Positions 1 through 11,030 of a DNA stretch of 12,281 bases are shown one piece after another; position 1 is the stretch's first letter; every line of letters starts with the position of its first letter. Made by a program: the position numbers and the translations under genes. Source of the DNA: an uncultured Pseudomonadota bacterium (GTDB lineage: Bacteria > Pseudomonadota > Gammaproteobacteria > Burkholderiales > SG8-39); NCBI GenBank assembly GCA_903864555.1, contig CAIPGJ010000111.1, forward strand, positions 1-12,281, written 5' to 3'. Under the pieces are notes generated by a model, which made no database searches, was not told the origin of the DNA, and saw only the letters and a program-made list of their open reading frames with translations.

Positions 1-896
1 ATCTTCTGGCGGGTGGCCGGATCCTTGAGGCTGGCTGCAGTGGCCTGGTAGACGCGGTCGATGATGGCGGGCGAAGTGCCTGCCGGGGCGAGCCAGCCCA
101 TCCAGGTGCTGGACTCATACCCGGGCACCGTTGCCGAAACCAGCGGCAGCTTGGGGAAGAGTTCGGACGGCACCTGTGTGCCCACGGCGATCACGCGAAC
201 CGCGCCGCTGCGCACCTGGGGGTCATCAGGCAGCACCAGGTTGAGCATCATCTGCACACGCCCCTGGGAGAGGTCGGTCATGGCCGGTGCCGTTCCCTTG
301 TAGGCGATGTGGGTCATCTTGACGCCGGTACGCGTGGCAAACAGTTCACCGCTCAGGTGGGCAAAACTGCCCACGCCGGTGGAGGCGTAATTGATGGCGC
401 CCGGGTCCTTGCGCGCGAGGTCGATCAGTTCCTTCACCGAATTGACGGGAAAATCCTTGGCGACCATGAGGAAGGCCGGGCTGGAGCTGATCTGGGTGAT
501 GGGCGCGAAGTCCTTCAGCGCGTTGTAGCTGATGTTGGTCATCAGGTGGGGGTTGATGACCATGGTGCCCGGCGTGCCGGCCATCAGGGTGTAACCATCC
601 GGTGCAGCCTTGGCGACCTGCCCGCCACCGATCACGCCGCCCGCTCCGGCCACGTTCTCGACCACGAAGGTCTGGCCCAGGCGCTTGCGCAGTTCCTCGG
701 CAATGATGCGCGACATCAGGTCGGTGCCGCCGCCGGTGGCAAAGGGCACCACCACGCGCACCGGCTTGGCCGGCCAGGCCTGGGCCTGGGCCTGTGCCGT
801 GCCTGCAGCGGCCAGGCCGAACAAGGCGGCTGCCGCGGCGGTCAGGACGCGGGACTGCGGTGCAACACCCCGGCGCTTCTCGGGATTCAATGACAT
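1..896 (-). CDS. Bug/TctC-family tripartite tricarboxylate transporter substrate-binding protein, C-terminus cut by window edge
   Basis: Periplasmic solute-binding protein of the Bug (TctC) family, which captures small carboxylates or related solutes. The start at 896 is preferred over an out-of-frame ATG at 900 because an AAAGGAG ribosome-binding site lies 5 nt upstream of it and the frame then stays open to the window edge. About 298 codons are present; the family usually has 320-330, so roughly 30 residues are missing. Residues 1 to about 38 form a signal peptide (basic start, Ala/Leu-rich core, AQA-type cleavage site). The mature protein opens with WPAKPVRVVVPFATGGGTD (residues 41-59), the family's first ligand-loop signature. 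APDGYTL (about 98-104) and HIAYKG follow, then a PGYE-W segment. It is the last visible gene of a minus-strand run of three Bug genes behind a selenoprotein gene. Family assignment is secure; the ligand is unknown. Confidence 0.93.
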   Translation of the reverse strand, partial: MSLNPEKRRGVAPQSRVLTAAAAALFGLAAAGTAQAQAQAWPAKPVRVVVPFATGGGTDLMSRIIAEELRKRLGQTFVVENVAGAGGVIGGGQVAKAAPDGYTLMAGTPGTMVINPHLMTNISYNALKDFAPITQISSSPAFLMVAKDFPVNSVKELIDLARKDPGAINYASTGVGSFAHLSGELFATRTGVKMTHIAYKGTAPAMTDLSQGRVQMMLNLVLPDDPQVRSGAVRVIAVGTQVPSELFPKLPLVSATVPGYESSTWMGWLAPAGTSPAIIDRVYQATAASLKDPATRQK

Positions 897-994
897 ACAT
901 TCTCCTTTGGTGTTCAGGATCGGCCGGTCATGCTGCCGGCTCGACAAGGCTTTCGTACTGGTGGCCGGCGCACCCGAAAAACCCGGATCAAGGC

Positions 995-1016: not shown

Positions 1017-2012
1017 CTAGTCTACCGTGGCGCCGGTCTCTTTCACCACCCGCGTCCACTTCACGATTTCATTGCGGATGAAGGCCTCGAATTCGCGGGG
1101 ACTGTTACCCACCGGTTCGGCGCCTTCACGGGCCAGCCGCTCCTTCACGTCCGGCTCCTTGAGCGCCTTGACCAGAACGGCATTGAGGCGCGCCACCACC
1201 GGCGCCGGCGTGCCGCCCGGTGCCACCAGCCCCGCCCAGTTGATGGATTCGTAGCCCGGCAAAGTTTCGGCGACTGTCGGCACATCGGGCATCAGCGTGC
1301 TGCGTGCCGGCGTGGTCACGGCGATGGGACGCAGGCGCCCGGCCTTCAGCAGTGGCTGCGCGGCAATCACGGTGCTCAGCATCACATCCACCCGGCCCCC
1401 GGCCACATCAGCCAGTGCCGGTGCGCCACCCTTGTAGGGCACGTGCGTCATCTTCGCCGCCTGCAGGCCCAGCAATTCCATGCCCAGCTGGTTGATGCTG
1501 CCATTGCCGGCGGAACCGAAGGTGAGCTTGCCCTGGCTCTTCTTCGCCAGTTCGATCAGGTCCTTCATGGTGCGGATGGGCAGGTCGGGGTTGGACACGA
1601 TGATCATCGCGGTGGAGGCAAACAGCGAGATGGGCGCGAAATCCTTCTGCGTGTTGTAGGGCAGCGTGCGCAGGCCGGTGGCGTTGATCACAAAGGCGGG
1701 CGTGGTGAGCAGCAGGGTGTAGCCATCGGGCGGGGCTTTGGCCACGATTTCCGTCCCCACCACCGCACCGCCGCCGGCGCGGTTGTCGACGATGGTCTGC
1801 TGCCCCAGCGACTCACCCAGTTTCTGCCCGACCAGGCGGCCGAACATGTCGGCGGCAGCCCCCGGCGCAAACGGCACGATGAGGCGGATGCTTTTCTCCG
1901 GCCATGCGGCATCGGCCGCCGTGGCCGGTTGCGCTGCCGGAAAGAGGCCAGCGAGGGCCGCCATTGTCATTGTCACTGCATATCGCGCTGCTGCTTGTTT
2001 CGCCACGTGCAT
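1017..2012 (-). CDS. Bug/TctC-family substrate-binding protein (331 aa)
   Basis: Second periplasmic Bug-type solute receptor of the minus-strand cluster. The frame stays open far upstream (to about 2561), but that extension lies across the next gene. The ATG at 2012 follows GAGGAG at a normal distance and begins an obvious signal peptide (MHVAKQ, then a hydrophobic stretch, cleavage near residues 30-36), so it is the start. Recognisable segments are WPEKSIRLIVPFAPGAAAD (about residues 37-55), PPDGYTL, HVPYKGGAPAL and PDVPTVAE. An oddity: the usual Gly-Gly-Pro of the first ligand loop is replaced by Gly-Ala-Ala-Ala, unlike the other Bug proteins here, which may reflect a different ligand. The gene ends with TAG at 1019-1017. 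It lies 38 bp downstream of the third Bug gene and is probably cotranscribed with it. The ligand is unknown. Confidence 0.93.
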   Translation of the reverse strand: MHVAKQAAARYAVTMTMAALAGLFPAAQPATAADAAWPEKSIRLIVPFAPGAAADMFGRLVGQKLGESLGQQTIVDNRAGGGAVVGTEIVAKAPPDGYTLLLTTPAFVINATGLRTLPYNTQKDFAPISLFASTAMIIVSNPDLPIRTMKDLIELAKKSQGKLTFGSAGNGSINQLGMELLGLQAAKMTHVPYKGGAPALADVAGGRVDVMLSTVIAAQPLLKAGRLRPIAVTTPARSTLMPDVPTVAETLPGYESINWAGLVAPGGTPAPVVARLNAVLVKALKEPDVKERLAREGAEPVGNSPREFEAFIRNEIVKWTRVVKETGATVD

Positions 2013-2050: not shown

Positions 2051-3034
2051 TTACTCCGCCTTGATGCCGGCGTGCTTGACGACCTCGGACCACTTGGTGA
2101 GTTCTGATTTCACATACTCGGTAAATTGCTCGGGGCTGCTGGCCACCACTTCCCCGCCTTCGGCCGTGAACACCTTGCTGACATCGGGATGCTTCAGCGC
2201 CCTGCCCGTTTCCTGGGCAATGCTGCGGACCAGCGCCGGCGGGGTACCACCGGCGACGAACACGCCGAACCAGACCGAGGCTTCGAAACCCGGAAAACCG
2301 GACTCCGCCACGGTGGGCAGGTCGGGCAGCATCTTCACCCGCTGCCGGCTGGTGATGGCCAGGGGTTGCAGCTTGCCCGACTTCACGAAGGGCAAGGCGG
2401 CCATGGCATTGGAAAAAGCCACCTCCACCTGCCCGCCCACCAGATCGTTCAGCGCGGCGATCGAACCTTTGTAGGGGATGTGGGCGATCTGGGTGCCGGC
2501 CATCTTGTTCAGCAGCTCGCAGGTGAGGTGATTGCCTGAGCCGATGCCGGCCGAGGCGCAATGCAGCGCCCCGGGTTTGGCCCTGGCCAGGACCAGCATG
2601 TCCTTGAAGTTCTTCGCGGGCAGCGACGGATGCGCCGTCAGCATGTAGGGCTGCGAGCTGATCTGCGTCACCGGCAGCAGGTCAGTCGCCGTGTTGTAGG
2701 GCAGCTTCTGATAGACGAAGGGATTGACCACGATCTGCGAGGTGCCAATCAGCAGGGTGTGTCCATCCGGCGGCGACTTGGCCACCACTTCGGTGCCGAT
2801 GATGGTGCCGGCGCCGGCGCGGTTCTCGACGATCACCGTCTGGCCGGACTGTTCCGTGAGTTTCTGCGCGATCAGGCGTCCGGCGATGTCCACCGGACCA
2901 CTGGGCGGAAAGGGCACGACGATGCGTGCCGCTTTGGTCGGAAAGCCCTGGCCCCAGGCACTGCCTGCCAGCAGGGCGAGAACACTACCGGCCCATGCCA
3001 GGCCGGCCCTGCTTTGTTTATTGGTGCGACTCAT
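2051..3034 (-). CDS. Bug/TctC-family substrate-binding protein (327 aa)
   Basis: Periplasmic Bug-type solute receptor, the Bug gene nearest the selenoprotein gene. The ATG at 3034 follows an AAGGAGG ribosome-binding site by about 7 nt. A signal peptide covers residues 1 to about 28 (MSRTNKQSR, then an Ala/Leu core ending SAWG). The mature part starts FPTKAARIVVPFPPSGPVD (about 31-49), with Ser-Gly-Pro in the ligand loop. Further family marks are PPDGHTLL, HIPYKGSIAAL, PDLPTVAESGFPGFE and the closing helical segment. Length is normal. The gene lies 84 bp downstream of the selenoprotein stop codon, on the same strand, so the two may share a transcript. No TctA/TctB membrane proteins are adjacent. 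The family is secure and the ligand unknown. Confidence 0.95.
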   Translation of the reverse strand: MSRTNKQSRAGLAWAGSVLALLAGSAWGQGFPTKAARIVVPFPPSGPVDIAGRLIAQKLTEQSGQTVIVENRAGAGTIIGTEVVAKSPPDGHTLLIGTSQIVVNPFVYQKLPYNTATDLLPVTQISSQPYMLTAHPSLPAKNFKDMLVLARAKPGALHCASAGIGSGNHLTCELLNKMAGTQIAHIPYKGSIAALNDLVGGQVEVAFSNAMAALPFVKSGKLQPLAITSRQRVKMLPDLPTVAESGFPGFEASVWFGVFVAGGTPPALVRSIAQETGRALKHPDVSKVFTAEGGEVVASSPEQFTEYVKSELTKWSEVVKHAGIKAE

Positions 3035-3109
3035 GTACCGCCTCCTTGGTGGCTGCCGGACATCTCTGGTGTGTGGTGGTGCTGATTTTGTGCTGAGGCC
3101 CGGCAGGAT

Positions 3110-3121
3110 TGAATCGATTCA
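3110..3121. repeat. 12-bp palindrome over the selenoprotein stop codon
   Basis: TGAATCGATTCA is a perfect dyad. On the minus strand it includes the TGA stop (3121-3119) of the UGSC selenoprotein gene and runs into the 84-bp gap before the next Bug gene. The rest of the gap shows only the Bug gene's ribosome-binding site. It is short enough to be chance. Confidence 0.5.
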
Positions 3122-4717
3122 GGTGATTTCACGGGTGACCGACCTGGTATTGCCGAAACTCTGCACATAGGCCGAATGCGTGCCCGGACCGCCGGCCACC
3201 AGGATACCCAGCTCGGCCGGACTGGCGCAGGCGGGCAGCAGGGTGTCGCGGGTGACCACGCCCAGTTCGGCGCGGCGCGAGTGCGTGGCCTGCTCGAAGT
3301 CGATGCCGGCCATCATGCTCGCCGGCATCTTCGAGGCCTCCCACAGCAGCCGCTTGGCCTCGGCCTTGCTGAGGCCACCGCCCTTGAGGATGTCGGCGTA
3401 CTCCGGGCACAACACCACCCAGGGCTGGCCGCAGGTGCGGTAGTCATTGCCGGCCGGGCGCGGCATGGATTGGCCAAACACGCGCACCACTTCATCGACG
3501 ATCTTGGAGCGGGTGTTCATGTTGACGATGCCTTCGGCGCCGACCACGGTCACGGCATTCTGGTCCGCGCGCATGCCGCGCTCCACATGCAGCGGCTCCC
3601 AGGGGCTGTCGGCCTCGTTCTCGGCGCAGCAGAAGGAGTACTTGCCCGGATAGCCATGCGTGGCGCGATCCATCTCGCCGGGCATGGCGCGACCGATGTT
3701 CTGCAGCACCAGCCGCAACGCCCGCCCCATGGTGGCATTGGCCCAGTTGCCCTGCCCCAGGCAGTTGGCGCCGCTGTTCATGCCCAGCTGCTTGGCAATG
3801 GGCCCATTGACGATCAGCCACACCGCCACCGGGTTGGTGGTGGCCTGTATGCCCTGCAGGTTGAACTTCGGGTCGGTCACCGCATCCACAGCAGCGATCA
3901 GCACCGGCAGGTACTCCGGATCGCAGCCGGCCATCACGGCATTGATGGCGATGCGCTCGACCGTGGCCGCGCCATAACCGGGCGCCACCAGGCCGATCAC
4001 CTCGGCCGGGTCACGCCGCGTCGCACGCAGCATGCGTTCCACCCGCGCGCGCGTGGGCGGCACCACGGGAAAGCCATCGGTCCAGCGCTGCTGGCGAAAA
4101 TGCAGATTGACCGCATCCAGGTCATCGGCCAGTTCGATCAGGCCTGCCCGCTGGCTGGCCGCGATGGCATTGCCCCTGGGCGCTGCCGCGGGGGACACCA
4201 GGTGCAGGATATTCTCCGCGCACTGGATCGCCAGCTCGCGGATGCCCTCGCGCTTGATGGCGCCGAAGGGATGCGGCACGATGGCCAGCGGCATCTCGGG
4301 AAAAGCGAGGCCGCGTGCCTGGGCACGACCCAGCGATTCAAAAGCCGTGGACACCACCGAGGCGGTGGCCAGACCGCGCTTGGCGGCTTCTGCGCTGTCG
4401 TGGACACTCCACGACGTGCAGGACCCTCAGTCGCCCGACCCGGTGATGACCAGGTCGCACTTGTCCAGCAGCTCCTGCATCACCGCATCGCCGGCCGGCA
4501 CCGAGGCCTGGCGCTTCTTGAAGATCAAAGTCCCAGCCGCGCCATGGCGGGTCTTGAACACCTCGGCCAGGTCTTCGATCAGATAGTCGAAATTGGGCTT
4601 GGTATTGTCGATGAAGCCCACCACCTTGCCTTTCACATCGGCAAGCGTGCGGTACTTCTGGACGTCGCCGTCGCGATAGGGGGCGATCGGATCGTAGACG
4701 GACATACGTGCGGGCAT
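3119..4717 (-). CDS. UGSC-family selenoprotein with in-frame UGA-encoded selenocysteine at residue 97 (532 aa)
   Basis: The product is one protein read through a TGA at 4429-4427. The residues before it are DLVITGSGD and those after are GSCTSW, so the codon lies exactly at the U of the Sec-Gly-Ser-Cys motif (97-100) that names the UGSC family. The frame then runs 435 further sense codons to TGA at 3121-3119. No plausible ribosome-binding site precedes a restart after the TGA, which argues against two genes. The start at 4717 has GAGGAG 8 nt upstream. Residues 20-165 look alpha/beta, with strands such as KVVGFIDNT and DLVITGSGD, and form the UGSC domain. Residues 200-525 are a second conserved region (WTDGFPVVPPT at 212-222, ATVERIAINAVMAGC at 251-265, SFCCAENE at 361-368). 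There is no signal peptide, so it should be cytoplasmic. The Sec-x-x-Cys spacing suggests selenol/thiol redox chemistry, but the reaction is unknown. Three Bug receptor genes follow on the same strand. Confidence 0.94.
4390..4429 (-). promoter_or_regulatory. Bacterial SECIS element with its UGA selenocysteine codon
   Basis: On the minus strand the UGA (4429-4427) is followed by 11 nt and then a perfect 8-bp stem, GTCGTGGA (4415-4408) with TCCACGAC (4404-4397), closed by a GTG triloop (or a 7-bp stem with an AGTGT loop). A lower 4-bp stem, CTGC (4421-4418) with GCAG (4393-4390), can form across a small internal loop. The apical loop begins 18-19 nt after the UGA and has a G in its first two positions. 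Both fit the known bacterial SECIS rules for SelB recruitment. The bulged U important in E. coli fdhF is not evident. Folding energy was not computed. Confidence 0.88.
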
Positions 4718-5036
4718 TGCCACTGCTCCTCTATTTCTGCCATTTTCGCCGGACTGCCTGTACAGGCTCATCCCGGCGCGTTGGCCTTCTTCGGATTGAA
4801 CTGACCATCGCTTAAGGATGCCTTCAAGACAAGGGGAAATCCACGCTCCATCATAGACCAAGCCCCGGAACAATCTGACACGCGACAGCTGAAAGCGCCT
4901 TTTCCCCGCAACGACAGAAATGATAGTTTGTCATCAGGGTGGAAGATTGCATCTTTATTGACAGGATCGCAACGGTTACGATGCCGCAACACCACCGGGT
5001 AGCAACTGCCAGATCCCGGGAGAAAAGGAGCCAAGG
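4718..5036. other. Divergent intergenic region between selenoprotein and MBL-fold genes
   Basis: This 319-bp region should hold the promoters of both divergent blocks. On the plus strand TTGACA (4958-4963) is a consensus -35 box, but no good -10 lies 16-18 nt downstream. On the minus strand TATGAT (4855-4850) resembles a -10 but has a poor -35. Each start has a clear ribosome-binding site: GAGGAG before 4717 and AAGGAG before 5037. Nothing resembles a regulator gene, a tRNA or a tRNA-Sec. The selenoprotein frame stays open back to 4873, but that stretch has no ribosome-binding site matching an earlier ATG. Confidence 0.6.
4756..4767. repeat. 12-bp palindrome upstream of the selenoprotein gene
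   Basis: GCCTGTACAGGC is a perfect dyad whose near end lies 38 bp upstream of the selenoprotein ATG at 4717. It is well placed for an operator or a 5'-UTR hairpin. No second copy was found in the window. Confidence 0.5.
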
Positions 5037-5864: not shown

Positions 5865-5964
5865 TGATGAGACGGCAGATTCACTGCTCACTGCCGCGGT
5901 TGCGCACGGAAGGCGGTTTGTTTCACAGGTAGACTATGCGAAAGGATTTAGAGTGCCTAACAAT

Positions 5965-5986
5965 GCGAGGGGACACATCCCCTCGC
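5965..5986. terminator. 9-bp perfect hairpin downstream of the MBL-fold gene
   Basis: GCGAGGGGA pairs with TCCCCTCGC around a CACA loop, about 100 bp after the MBL-fold stop. It is GC-rich and very stable in appearance but lacks a T-run, so it could be a Rho-assisted or 3'-end-protecting structure rather than a classical terminator. Confidence 0.45.
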
Positions 5987-6002
5987 GCTCCCCAAAGTCA
6001 GA

Positions 6003-7395: not shown

Positions 7396-9486
7396 GTGAA
7401 ATCCAGCCTTTCCTCCCTTTTTTCGCCACGTTCCATTGCGGTCATCGGGGCCACCGACGAAATCTCGCGAGCCGGAGGTCGCGCACTCGCCATTCTCAAA
7501 ATGGCGGGATATCAAGGTGCAATCTACCCGGTCCACCCGACACGCACGACCATCCAGGGGCTTCCCGCCTATCCATCCCTTTCGGCACTCCCCGCCCCGG
7601 CAGACCTCGCCGTCATCTCGCTTGCGCCGGAACGCGTCGTTGACGCCATCAGGGAATGCGTCAGCAACGGCGTGGGGGCTGCGACTGTCTTTGCGGATGG
7701 CTTCACTTCCACCATGAGGGAAGCGCTGGAGACCATCCTGAGGGACGCCAGCGCAGCAAGCGGATTGCGGATGCTCGGTCCGAATACCATCGGCTTCAGG
7801 GCGCTTGCCGACAACGTCTACGGAACCTTTGCCGGAGACATCGAATTGGGAACCTTGGTTGGTCCCACCGCATTCATCGCGCAAAGTGGTGGCATGAGCA
7901 CCTATTTCGGATCCACCTGCCTGGCCACTCGCGGCATCGGGACCCGCTATCTGATCGATACCGGCAATGAGTTTGATATTGCTGCAGCAGACTGCATCGA
8001 GCACATCGCCAACGACCCGGAGGTCAATGCCATTGCACTGATGGCCGAGAGCGCCAAGGACGGCAGAAGGCTGACCGACGCGATCCGGCTGGCCGTGGGC
8101 CGGGGCAAGACTGTCGTGGCACTCAAGATGGCCCGCAGCGTTGCCGGACTGGCTCAGGCGGCCTCCCACACCGGCGCCCTGGCCGGAAAGGGAGAGCTGT
8201 TCGACTCCGAGCTGCGTGCGGCGGGGGCCTGTGTCGTGGCCAGTGAGACGGAGTTGCTCGACGCCATGGCCATTGCGGGCCTGAAGCGCATCCCGGCCGG
8301 ACGGGGCGTGGGAATCGTCACCTCTTCGGGTGGTTTTGGCATTCTTGCCCTGGATGCCGCGGAGCGGGCGGGAATGCTGGTTCCAGCACCTGCGTTGGCG
8401 GCCAGCGAAGCGGAAAGGCAGGAGATCAAGGGCGGGAAATTTGCAAACCCGTTTGATTTCTCCTCCAGTCTTTCGGCCGGACCGAAGGCGGCCGAAACGG
8501 CACTCAACTGGATCCTCTCGCAACCCAACATCGACTGCGTGGTCGCCTTTCATTTCTATTCGGCAATGCGCGTCGATCGCCAGGAATCGCTTTTCAGGCA
8601 GCTGAGTACCGCTGCAAAGAGCACGACCAAACCCATCTTTGTCTGCGGCGTCGCGCCAGCCGATTTTGCAGCCCGCTTGCATGACGTTGGGGTAGTTTTC
8701 TTCGAGGATCCATCCCGCCTCATGAAGGCGCTGTCGACTCTGGTTCCCATGACGCAGGCCGTTGCGGTAGCGCCTGCCTTGCAAGGCATGACCGGGGAGC
8801 CAATGCCCATTGCCGGGGCTGCTGCCCGTCAGCGACTGCAACATCTGCGAAACCTGCCCCAGGTGCCCAGCCATGCCGTAGCAAGCTCGGTGGAAGCACG
8901 GACTCTCCAGCAACAGCTGGGGTGCAAGGTCATTCTCAAGGTTGAAAGTGACGCCCATGCTCACAAGTCCGATTACGGTCTGGTTGAAGGTCCGCTGGCA
9001 CCGCATGAACTGGAAACGGCTTTCTCCAGACTCGAGGCGGCACGGCGTGCCTGTGGCGCCCAGGACGCGCCCATGGTGCTTCAGCCATTCGAGCGGGGCG
9101 TTGAACTGGCATTGGGCGCTTACCACGACCCGATATTCGGCCCTTCCGTGATGGTCGCAGTTGGCGGGATTTTTTTGGAGATCCTGAATGACGCAGCCTT
9201 CGCCGCCGCTCCCATCGACCGGGAACGGGCCCGACAGATGATTCTTTCTCTCAAAGGCGCCCCCCTGCTCCTGGGCGCTCGCGGGAGGCCCCTGGCGGAC
9301 ATTGACGCCGCGGCAGCTGCGCTGTGCGACCTTGCCGATTTCATCGTCACGAACACAGACGAGATTCAGGAGGTGGACATCAATCCACTCATCGTGAAAG
9401 ACCAGGGCCATGGCGTCATTGCAGTGGATGCCCTGTTGATTCCCCGGCACGTCCAGTCCCGTCCGCTGACTACAGGCCAGGCATGA
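7396..9486 (+). CDS. Acyl-CoA synthetase (NDP-forming), acetate--CoA ligase family (696 aa)
   Basis: Single-chain acyl-CoA synthetase of the ADP/NDP-forming type, joining a carboxylic acid to CoA with ATP by way of a phospho-histidine. Order of domains: CoA-binding Rossmann domain (about 8-105, with SIAVIGAT at 13-20); succinyl-CoA-synthetase-alpha-like domain (about 150-290), with QSGG at 163-166 and SHTGALAG at 257-264, where His258 is the likely phosphorylated residue; a linking ligase domain (about 300-450); and a C-terminal ATP-grasp domain (about 470-690), with the HKSDYG motif at 523-528 and EVDINPL at 659-665. The length of about 700 residues is normal. The GTG start at 7396 has GGAG 11 nt upstream, rather far, so expression may be modest. 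The stop overlaps the next ATG by 4 bp (ATGA), indicating translational coupling with the flavoprotein. The substrate acid is not identifiable. Confidence 0.93.
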   Translation: MKSSLSSLFSPRSIAVIGATDEISRAGGRALAILKMAGYQGAIYPVHPTRTTIQGLPAYPSLSALPAPADLAVISLAPERVVDAIRECVSNGVGAATVFADGFTSTMREALETILRDASAASGLRMLGPNTIGFRALADNVYGTFAGDIELGTLVGPTAFIAQSGGMSTYFGSTCLATRGIGTRYLIDTGNEFDIAAADCIEHIANDPEVNAIALMAESAKDGRRLTDAIRLAVGRGKTVVALKMARSVAGLAQAASHTGALAGKGELFDSELRAAGACVVASETELLDAMAIAGLKRIPAGRGVGIVTSSGGFGILALDAAERAGMLVPAPALAASEAERQEIKGGKFANPFDFSSSLSAGPKAAETALNWILSQPNIDCVVAFHFYSAMRVDRQESLFRQLSTAAKSTTKPIFVCGVAPADFAARLHDVGVVFFEDPSRLMKALSTLVPMTQAVAVAPALQGMTGEPMPIAGAAARQRLQHLRNLPQVPSHAVASSVEARTLQQQLGCKVILKVESDAHAHKSDYGLVEGPLAPHELETAFSRLEAARRACGAQDAPMVLQPFERGVELALGAYHDPIFGPSVMVAVGGIFLEILNDAAFAAAPIDRERARQMILSLKGAPLLLGARGRPLADIDAAAAALCDLADFIVTNTDEIQEVDINPLIVKDQGHGVIAVDALLIPRHVQSRPLTTGQA

Positions 9487-11030
9487 GCGCAAGGCTGAAG
9501 GACGCAAGCGAAGCACAGGGCGGGCGTCTGCACCCATGGCATTACGAGGCCGACATTGTGGTTATCGGCTATGGCGGGGCGGGCTCTGCGGCAGCCATTG
9601 CTGCGCATGACTCCGGCCACAGTGTCCTGGTATTGGAGAAGGCGCCTTTCGGCGGTGGCAATACCGGCTGCTGCGGCGGCGGCATGCGTATCCCCAAGGA
9701 GGCAGCCAAGGCGCTCGATTACTACCGCGCACTCACCCAGGGTACAGTCGAGGACGAATCACTCCGGGCCATGGCCAGGGCCATCCATGCACTTCCCGCC
9801 CGAATGGAGTCCTGGGGCGCCGAACTCGAGTGGATCAAGCGCGGGCTGGATTACCCCGGCTTGCCTGGTGCTGAAACCTTTGGCGAAGTGGTGAGCATCT
9901 CGAGAACCAAGGAGGAGAAGGCGCGTCAGGCAGGCGGCCCCATCTTCGCAGTTCGCGGCGATGGACTGTTCGCCTTTCTGGATGGCCAGGTAAAGAAGCG
10001 AAGCATCAAGGTCCTTTTCAATTCTCCTGCCCAATCGCTGGTGCAGGATCCGGATACGAAGGAAATCCTTGGCGTCCGTGCATTGGAGAACGGCAGCACC
10101 AACGTGCTCGTCAAGGCACGCAAGGCCGTCATCCTCTGCTCCGGGGGCTTCCAGAACAACCGTGAAATGCTGATCAATTACCTGCCCTACATGTCCGCCT
10201 TGCCAACGACGCCCTATGGCACTCCCTACAGCACCGGTGACGGCATCCACATGGCGAGTGAAGTTGGCGCAAAGCTCTGGCACATGAGCGGCGTGGAGCT
10301 GGGTCAGTTCGCCCCGCGCATCCCGAGCGAGAAATATGGCCTTGGCTTTCGCCTGGAGAAGTCCTTGCGCCCGCAAAGCCAGGTCATCTACGTGAACAAA
10401 TCCGGTCACCGCTTCATGGACGAATCAGTGCTGCTCAGTCATCGCAAGGATCTCTTTCCGGTGCAGATTTTCGATCAGGAGAAAGCCACCTATCCCAACA
10501 TTCCCTTCTTCATGATCTTCGATGACGCTTATCGGGCCCCTCGCCCGATCGTCGGAGGCCACATGGGATGGTGGTGGGTGCACAAGGTCTACCAATGGAG
10601 CGAGGACAACAGTGCCGAGGTGAATCTCGGCTGGATCACCCAAGCCGACACCATTGCCGAACTGGCCTTGAAGATGGGGCTGGATGCCGACGGCCTGGAG
10701 CAATCCGTGCATGAGTACAACCGCAGTTGCGAAAGCGGGCTCGATTCGGCCTTTGGACGCTCCAGGACGTCGATGGCACCATTGCTCAAGCCGCCCTTCT
10801 ACGCCACCGAATTGTGTGAGCCCATCATCAACACCCAGGGTGGTCCCAAACACAATGCGCACGCCCAGGTTCTCGATCGGCATGACCACCCCATCAAGCG
10901 GCTGTATGCCGCAGGTGAGCTGGGGTCTTTCTTCTATCCACTGTACGAGAGTGCATCCAATGTTCCGGAAGCGTTGGCTTTCGGCATCATCGCCGCGGAG
11001 CACGCCGTCCGGCTGGAAAGCTGGAGCTAG
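9483..11030 (+). CDS. FAD-dependent oxidoreductase, fumarate reductase/3-ketosteroid dehydrogenase type (515 aa)
   Basis: Flavoprotein of the FAD-binding-2 superfamily, which includes fumarate reductase flavoproteins, urocanate reductase and 3-ketosteroid delta-1-dehydrogenases. ADIVVIGYGGAGSAAAIAA (about 23-41) is the dinucleotide-binding motif GxGxxG, with the ribose-binding acid at Glu52 (LVLEKA). The C-terminal FAD contact region reads NTQGGPKHNA (about 450-459), then LYAAGELGS and a SNVPEAL-AFGIIAAEHA helix. The frame is open upstream inside the synthetase gene, but the ATG at 9483 overlaps the synthetase stop as ATGA, so it is the start. No Tat or Sec signal is present; the protein should be cytoplasmic, probably introducing or removing a C=C bond next to a carbonyl or acyl-CoA. 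The active-site acid/base residues were not assigned. It is tightly linked to the acyl-CoA synthetase. Confidence 0.92.
   Translation: MSARLKDASEAQGGRLHPWHYEADIVVIGYGGAGSAAAIAAHDSGHSVLVLEKAPFGGGNTGCCGGGMRIPKEAAKALDYYRALTQGTVEDESLRAMARAIHALPARMESWGAELEWIKRGLDYPGLPGAETFGEVVSISRTKEEKARQAGGPIFAVRGDGLFAFLDGQVKKRSIKVLFNSPAQSLVQDPDTKEILGVRALENGSTNVLVKARKAVILCSGGFQNNREMLINYLPYMSALPTTPYGTPYSTGDGIHMASEVGAKLWHMSGVELGQFAPRIPSEKYGLGFRLEKSLRPQSQVIYVNKSGHRFMDESVLLSHRKDLFPVQIFDQEKATYPNIPFFMIFDDAYRAPRPIVGGHMGWWWVHKVYQWSEDNSAEVNLGWITQADTIAELALKMGLDADGLEQSVHEYNRSCESGLDSAFGRSRTSMAPLLKPPFYATELCEPIINTQGGPKHNAHAQVLDRHDHPIKRLYAAGELGSFFYPLYESASNVPEALAFGIIAAEHAVRLESWS

Follow-up and report, generated by a model that had tools for sequence, protein, structure and literature searches.

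On a 12,281-nucleotide stretch of DNA from an uncultured Pseudomonadota bacterium of the order Burkholderiales (contig CAIPGJ010000111.1; taken in its whole length as the window), the gene at 3119–4717 of the minus strand encodes a 532-residue, two-domain protein of the UGSC family. Its single in-frame TGA, at codon 97, is almost certainly decoded as selenocysteine (Sec), a prediction that draws together conservation of the TGA, homologues with Cys at the same site, a hairpin resembling a selenocysteine insertion sequence (SECIS) with frozen synonymous sites, and the Sec machinery of relatives' genomes. For the protein as a whole, the reading put forward, at a probability a little short of even, is that of a Sec-decoded two-domain enzyme whose GrdB/PrdB-like selenolate would reductively cleave a carbon–heteroatom bond of an organic acid delivered by a TctC receptor. 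A preliminary description of this DNA had proposed one 532-residue UGSC selenoprotein, which conservation of the TGA, full-length Cys homologues, the SECIS-like stem and the machinery support; the second domain, the adjacent receptor gene, the amplification of the family and its likely kinship to GrdB/PrdB go beyond that first reading.

The protein is of an already known kind. The UGSC family (PF24696; NF041046) shares the Sec domain, with Sec or Cys at the same site, and ranks among the commonest selenoprotein families of the Global Ocean Sampling (GOS) water metagenomes (PMC2398784, PMC9402790); a fusion of UGSC to an unnamed domain, 'Unknown_1', was reported in 2008 (PMC2398784) and is probably the fusion found here. 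A 2026 review counts UGSC among the families with largely uncharacterized functions (PMC13188914). No link of UGSC to GrdB/PrdB, to TctC or to a betaproteobacterial amplification appeared in the literature searched, relative to which the amplification, the linkage to TctC receptors and the likely remote GrdB/PrdB kinship are new; two papers cited in PMC13188914, one on selenoprotein neighbourhoods and one on groundwater metagenome-assembled genomes (MAGs), could contain part of this.

Conservation of the in-frame TGA

Translation of the gene gives the TGA at codon 97 (4429–4427) as the only internal stop triplet before the terminal TGA (3121–3119), with the motif GSGD-U-GSCTSW around codon 97 and AGGAG immediately 5′ of the ATG at 4717; it bears out the earlier claim of a single TGA placed on the U of Sec-Gly-Ser-Cys and followed by 435 sense codons. 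A scan of genome contigs found 94 relatives, from which 80 loci were kept, and TGA stands at codon 97 in all 78 loci that cover the site (it lies outside L055 and L077). By title, 65 of the 80 are Betaproteobacteria, beta proteobacterium, Burkholderiales or Burkholderiaceae, 12 are Bordetella parapertussis, and one each is Chitinophaga pinensis, Chloroflexi and uncultured bacterium; the contigs titled B. parapertussis, C. pinensis and Chloroflexi (L004, L016 and L077 among them) look mislabelled or like contaminated MAGs. A wider set of 101 loci added the window and 20 fetched regions to these 80, four further genome-search loci being excluded, and its 132 UGSC-domain matches included 120 with TGA, one with TGC and 11 left unplaced by the motif rule. 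An altered code in which TGA is a sense codon throughout was rejected, as TGA terminates four other window genes; these, together with the terminal TGA of the UGSC gene itself, which is followed by no such stem as described below, indicate that the genetic code is unchanged.

The alternation of Sec and Cys at the UGSC position, stated in the preliminary description, agrees with the homologues of the Cys form. The locus with TGC at the Sec site (L085) has an intact 550-residue open reading frame (ORF) spanning both domains, and a search with its protein returned 5099 homologues, among the 120 listed of which the Sec column holds Cys in 119 and is not covered in one; the full two-domain Cys forms for which a search had been advised do exist. 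The window protein itself returned 7380 homologues, of which the 120 listed measure 366–458 residues and 117 begin past residue 97 and the TGA. The database protein for the window (P0002) is likewise a 391-residue fragment, so that the earlier remark that standard gene callers would misreport the gene holds.

In architecture, 69 ORFs are fused, and 34 UGSC-only rows divide into 27 with a C-terminal-domain ORF just downstream, four broken fragments (L048, L049 and, twice, L061) and three without a partner. The 27 loci with both domains on separate adjacent ORFs qualify the single-protein reading. A UGSC subfamily (L085, L097, L099) reads UGTS or CGTS, having lost the second Cys of UxxC and kept the first-position Sec/Cys, which counts against the enzyme function put forward. 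The split loci lend some support to the reading that the TGA is a genuine stop or an error, leaving two genes or a pseudogene, but this is extremely improbable: the TGA recurs at every covering locus and lies within the first domain, the Cys homologues are intact, and the hairpin codons are frozen. As to an alignment of homologues as two independent proteins, the outcome singled out earlier as damaging to the selenoprotein, the ORFs of these loci break at the border between the domains and not at the TGA. The occurrence of the domain pair both fused and as neighbours supports a joint function. In one ORF (L023, 10001–11680) the interdomain linker contains another TGA, at residue 191, which may mark a split gene pair.

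A hairpin downstream of the TGA

The bacterial SECIS rule, as given in a recent review, asks for a hairpin right after the UGA, with a G among the first loop positions and the loop 16–37 nt away (PMC13188914). The hairpin GTCGTGGA-GTG-TCCACGAC (4397–4415, minus strand) agrees with it, having an 8-bp stem and an apical loop, GTG, that begins 19 nt past the TGA. Of the 400 TGA triplets on both strands of the window, only two, that of codon 97 among them, have a perfect stem of 8 bp or more in the SECIS position behind them, and the folding energy is −21.2 kcal/mol after codon 97 against −1.9 kcal/mol after the terminal TGA of the same gene. Over 112 distinct contexts, standard pairs occupy 96% of stem cells in register, compared with 15–59% when the register is slid by 1–3 nt. 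Synonymous sites were compared in 53 fused genes of the main subfamily, which remained of the 69 fused ORFs once 11 had been dropped for length or N and five for another motif; Ser102 is TCG, Ser104 is AGT and His106 is CAC in all 53, and codon entropy is lowest in block 102–107 among 90 blocks. Double changes in the stem, at 18, fall within the 2–21 of the slid controls and so are no proof of the hairpin by themselves.

Another UGSC subfamily has a different stem, GCCCGC-CGTGTT-GCGGGC. An Rfam scan of 3100–4900 returned two matches (E 7.5 and 9.4), taken as chance. Elsewhere in the window, at about 5960–6000, the gap separating a metallo-beta-lactamase gene from a tctC gene holds a minus-strand TGA with the perfect stem GCGAGGGG...CCCCTCGC behind it, which may be a terminator.

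Selenocysteine machinery and copy number in relatives' genomes

Twenty genomes, picked as holders of UGSC relatives, were surveyed for Sec machinery. Cut-offs were passed by selA, selB and tRNA-Sec (selC) in 19 genomes each and by selD in all 20; the single misses for selA (G006) and selB (G018) each show partial matches where contigs end, and that for tRNA-Sec is G019. Within selD an in-frame TGA is present in 16 of the 20, which makes SelD itself a likely selenoprotein in those genomes.

The same genomes hold 468 UGSC copies, counted as PF24696 matches with fragments included, at 7–58 per genome (34, 25, 30, 7, 40, 29, 19, 31, 58, 8, 22, 14, 12, 19, 25, 19, 26, 35, 7 and 8), where a 2016 survey table lists 26 and 33 for UGSC, taken as organisms and genes (PMC5029168). 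TGA is contained in 54 of the 58 UGSC rows of G009, 51 of those without another stop, and in 38 of 40 and 30 of 35 rows in G005 and G018. In G009 a single selB and a single tRNA-Sec exceed the cut-off, which speaks against a mixed MAG without excluding one. Of 274 genomes drawn evenly from the class, with no more than 12 candidates scored per genome, three have the family, G009 included. The largest selenoproteomes reported comprise 57 genes and, in the case of one MAG, 63 (PMC13188914); if the reading is true, a single genome would have about 50 selenoproteins of the UGSC family alone, near these whole sets.

Probable remote relation of the UGSC domain to GrdB and PrdB

The N-terminal domain (4181–4717, minus strand) matches PF24696 over residues 7–173 at 145.1 bits, against a gathering cut-off of 25, and has the Sec codon in its motif, so that the family assignment of the preliminary description holds. 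The NF041046 equivalog cut-off of 125 is not reached (109.3 bits at full length, 112.6 for the domain alone); by PF24696 and the motif, the predicted protein is filed under UGSC and not as an NF041046 equivalog. Only Sec/Cys97, Gly98 and Phe126 are invariant across 30 UGSC domains. The domain has a Rossmann-like alpha/beta model, for which structure comparison placed Rossmann-like matches at the top; no thioredoxin was among the 50 VIA rows listed, which excludes nothing.

Profile comparison suggests that the UGSC Sec domain is probably a remote relative of the reductase selenoproteins GrdB (PF07355, glycine/sarcosine/betaine reductase selenoprotein B) and PrdB. After UGSC_fam, the NCBIfam models matched by the largest numbers of the 30 domains were gly_red_sel_B (16, with a best E of 3.8e-5), PrdB (12), GrdF (10), GrdH (6) and various_sel_PB (5), and the stretches matching GrdB/PrdB-type models span the Sec site. 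The UGSC profile was compared by hhalign with 21 GrdB/PrdB-like sequences, gathered from genomes by an iterated profile search seeded with one GrdB, and scored 47.7 over 106 columns (probability 91.4, single-comparison E 9.2e-7), residue 97 aligning with the Sec of GrdB (L105) and with the first Cys of CPxC in the remaining templates. The best of 29 control profiles, built from ORF clusters that had not been filtered and could contain antisense ORFs, scored 27.6, and the UGSC score was still 37.3 with residues 94–103 masked.

Several results pull against this kinship. Masking of the motif lowers the hhalign probability to 67; 20 of the 21 templates carry CPxC instead of UGxC; and ten members taken singly fall far below the curated cut-offs, at no more than 22.8 bits against 602 for TIGR01917 and 17.2 against 300 for TIGR04483. 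The window's own UGSC domain has no GrdB/PrdB hit in its NCBIfam table, the C-terminal domain matches neither GrdB nor a PrdA/GrdE model, and GrdA occurs in three of the 20 relatives' genomes, from which it follows that the glycine-reductase cycle as such is not general among them.

No significant match to the Protein Data Bank (PDB) was obtained by sequence for the whole protein (E 0.79), the C-terminal domain (0.21), the N-terminal domain (0.13) or GrdB (0.7). The Sec part of a GrdB (P0242), used as query, returned six proteins at 52% coverage, apparently ending at the Sec site. A GrdB-type gene with TGA at the Sec site shares its contig with a TGA-bearing GrdA gene (L105, 1483–2760, and contig C148 of G009), so that a betaproteobacterial MAG carries a set resembling glycine reductase; further genomes contain PrdB-like ORFs.

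The C-terminal domain

The second domain (3122–4153, minus strand) has no significant match in Pfam, NCBIfam or the PDB. It is probably the 'Unknown_1' of PMC2398784, an equation made from the paper's text and not by sequence comparison. As a GrdB relative it was rejected, with an hhalign probability of 0.2. Foldseek gave a fumarate hydratase as top match (E 3.1e-3), with fumarate hydratases in 13 of the first 14 VIA rows, and identity with fumarate hydratase was set aside as a weak lead only. Matches to the domain that stand apart from the UGSC-domain matches of their locus lie at L031 3919–4917, L036 3729–4727, L037 4389–5387, L049 3700–4704 and L073 13366–14352.

Linkage to TctC receptor genes

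Directly downstream of the UGSC gene, after an 84-bp gap, lies a gene for a TctC/Bug-type receptor (2051–3034, minus strand), a component of tripartite tricarboxylate transporters (PF03401), as is also the case in L001 and L002, where close relatives (85% and 82%) occupy the same place; a 54% relative is found in L004. Linkage was scored as a tctC gene on the same strand at most 600 bp downstream in the 101 loci, 14 further C-terminal-domain genes lacking room. With relatedness ignored, tctC follows 51 of 128 C-terminal-domain genes, whereas for other ORFs the figure is 52 of 502, giving an odds ratio of 5.7 (p 1.4e-13); tctC genes themselves are followed by tctC in 54 of 292. An earlier proximity count (102 of 132 within 3 kb) was judged partly background and is superseded by this controlled count. 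The linkage is weakened by the lack of correction for relatedness and by the great abundance of TctC genes, at 180–995 first-look candidates per genome (at most 74 scored).

Proposed function and alternatives

TctC/Bug receptors bind carboxylates, and the neighbouring receptor would bring in an organic acid. The selenol would act as the nucleophile, attacking the substrate carbon that bears the leaving group, and the Se–substrate adduct would be released by a second thiol, either Cys100 where present or an external dithiol. The C-terminal domain may bind substrate in place of GrdE/PrdA, and each paralog may serve a different substrate. D-proline reductase receives electrons by a dithiol route, and since GrdA was not found in 17 of the 20 genomes, electrons would here need another dithiol route. 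The putative attack on a carbon with a leaving group in a TctC-delivered acid is modelled on a fluoroacetate-reducing bacterium in which GrdB paralogs are amplified and one, beside its own transporter in the far operon, is assigned to fluoroacetate C–F cleavage, its Sec being predicted to attack the C–F bond in a glycine-reductase-like manner (PMC10838667); that paralog adjoining a transporter gene resembles the UGSC paralogs adjoining a receptor gene.

More tentatively, at well under an even probability, an environmental betaproteobacterial lineage may have expanded the UGSC fusion into a large set of selenoenzymes with diversified substrates, each combining a GrdB/PrdB-type Sec domain with a new substrate-binding fold and many copies having their own TctC receptor. 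These would reductively strip N, S, O or halogen from different organic acids and do so without the partners of glycine reductase. If true, environmental Betaproteobacteria would possess in selenium-based C–X cleavage a large overlooked catabolic trait, one that has stayed hidden since gene calling truncates almost every listed copy at the TGA. Given the likely GrdB/PrdB kinship, the conserved receptor partner and the extreme copy number, the function lends itself to direct testing.

Three other accounts of the protein were weighed. Rather unlikely is a thiol/selenol redox protein, a disulfide reductase or peroxidase-like, to which the C-terminal domain would add another redox Cys; the UxxC motif, the near-invariant Cys265 of that domain, and a GOS paper describing a likely thioredoxin-like fold and potential redox role (PMC2398784) argue for it. 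The Foldseek result with fumarate hydratases bears instead on a catalyst in the C-terminal domain, such as a hydro-lyase remotely similar to class I fumarate hydratase with the Sec domain in support, which is held to be improbable. Sec is a ligand for soft metals, and a detoxification protein whose selenol binds a soft metal or organometal is about as improbable, if not slightly more so. A Sec-assisted organometallic operon described in the 2026 review (PMC13188914) is in its favour, whereas no metal-resistance family is found among ten named neighbour clusters, other clusters being unnamed.

Further neighbouring genes

The window carries five tctC receptor genes over its 12 kb, including a second in the same direction (1017–2006, minus strand) and a third cut by the window end (3–947, minus strand); no membrane component of a tripartite tricarboxylate transporter is among the nine window proteins scanned. 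The ten neighbour clusters, chosen at up to 5 kb from a UGSC domain in the 101 loci and named by one representative each, include MmgE/PrpD (18), CoA transferase III (CoA_transf_3; 10), SDR (8), FAD_binding_2 (7) and six smaller. The specificity of this neighbourhood is qualified by other clusters, some as large, that are unnamed, and some of which are housekeeping-like (MurA-like, 11 loci, by eye). The window also encodes an FAD_binding_2 flavoprotein (9477–11030, plus strand; start not fixed), a 66% identical gene for which lies 48 bp upstream of a UGSC domain in L006; the sole other match at threshold (L042) is 5.6 kb away.
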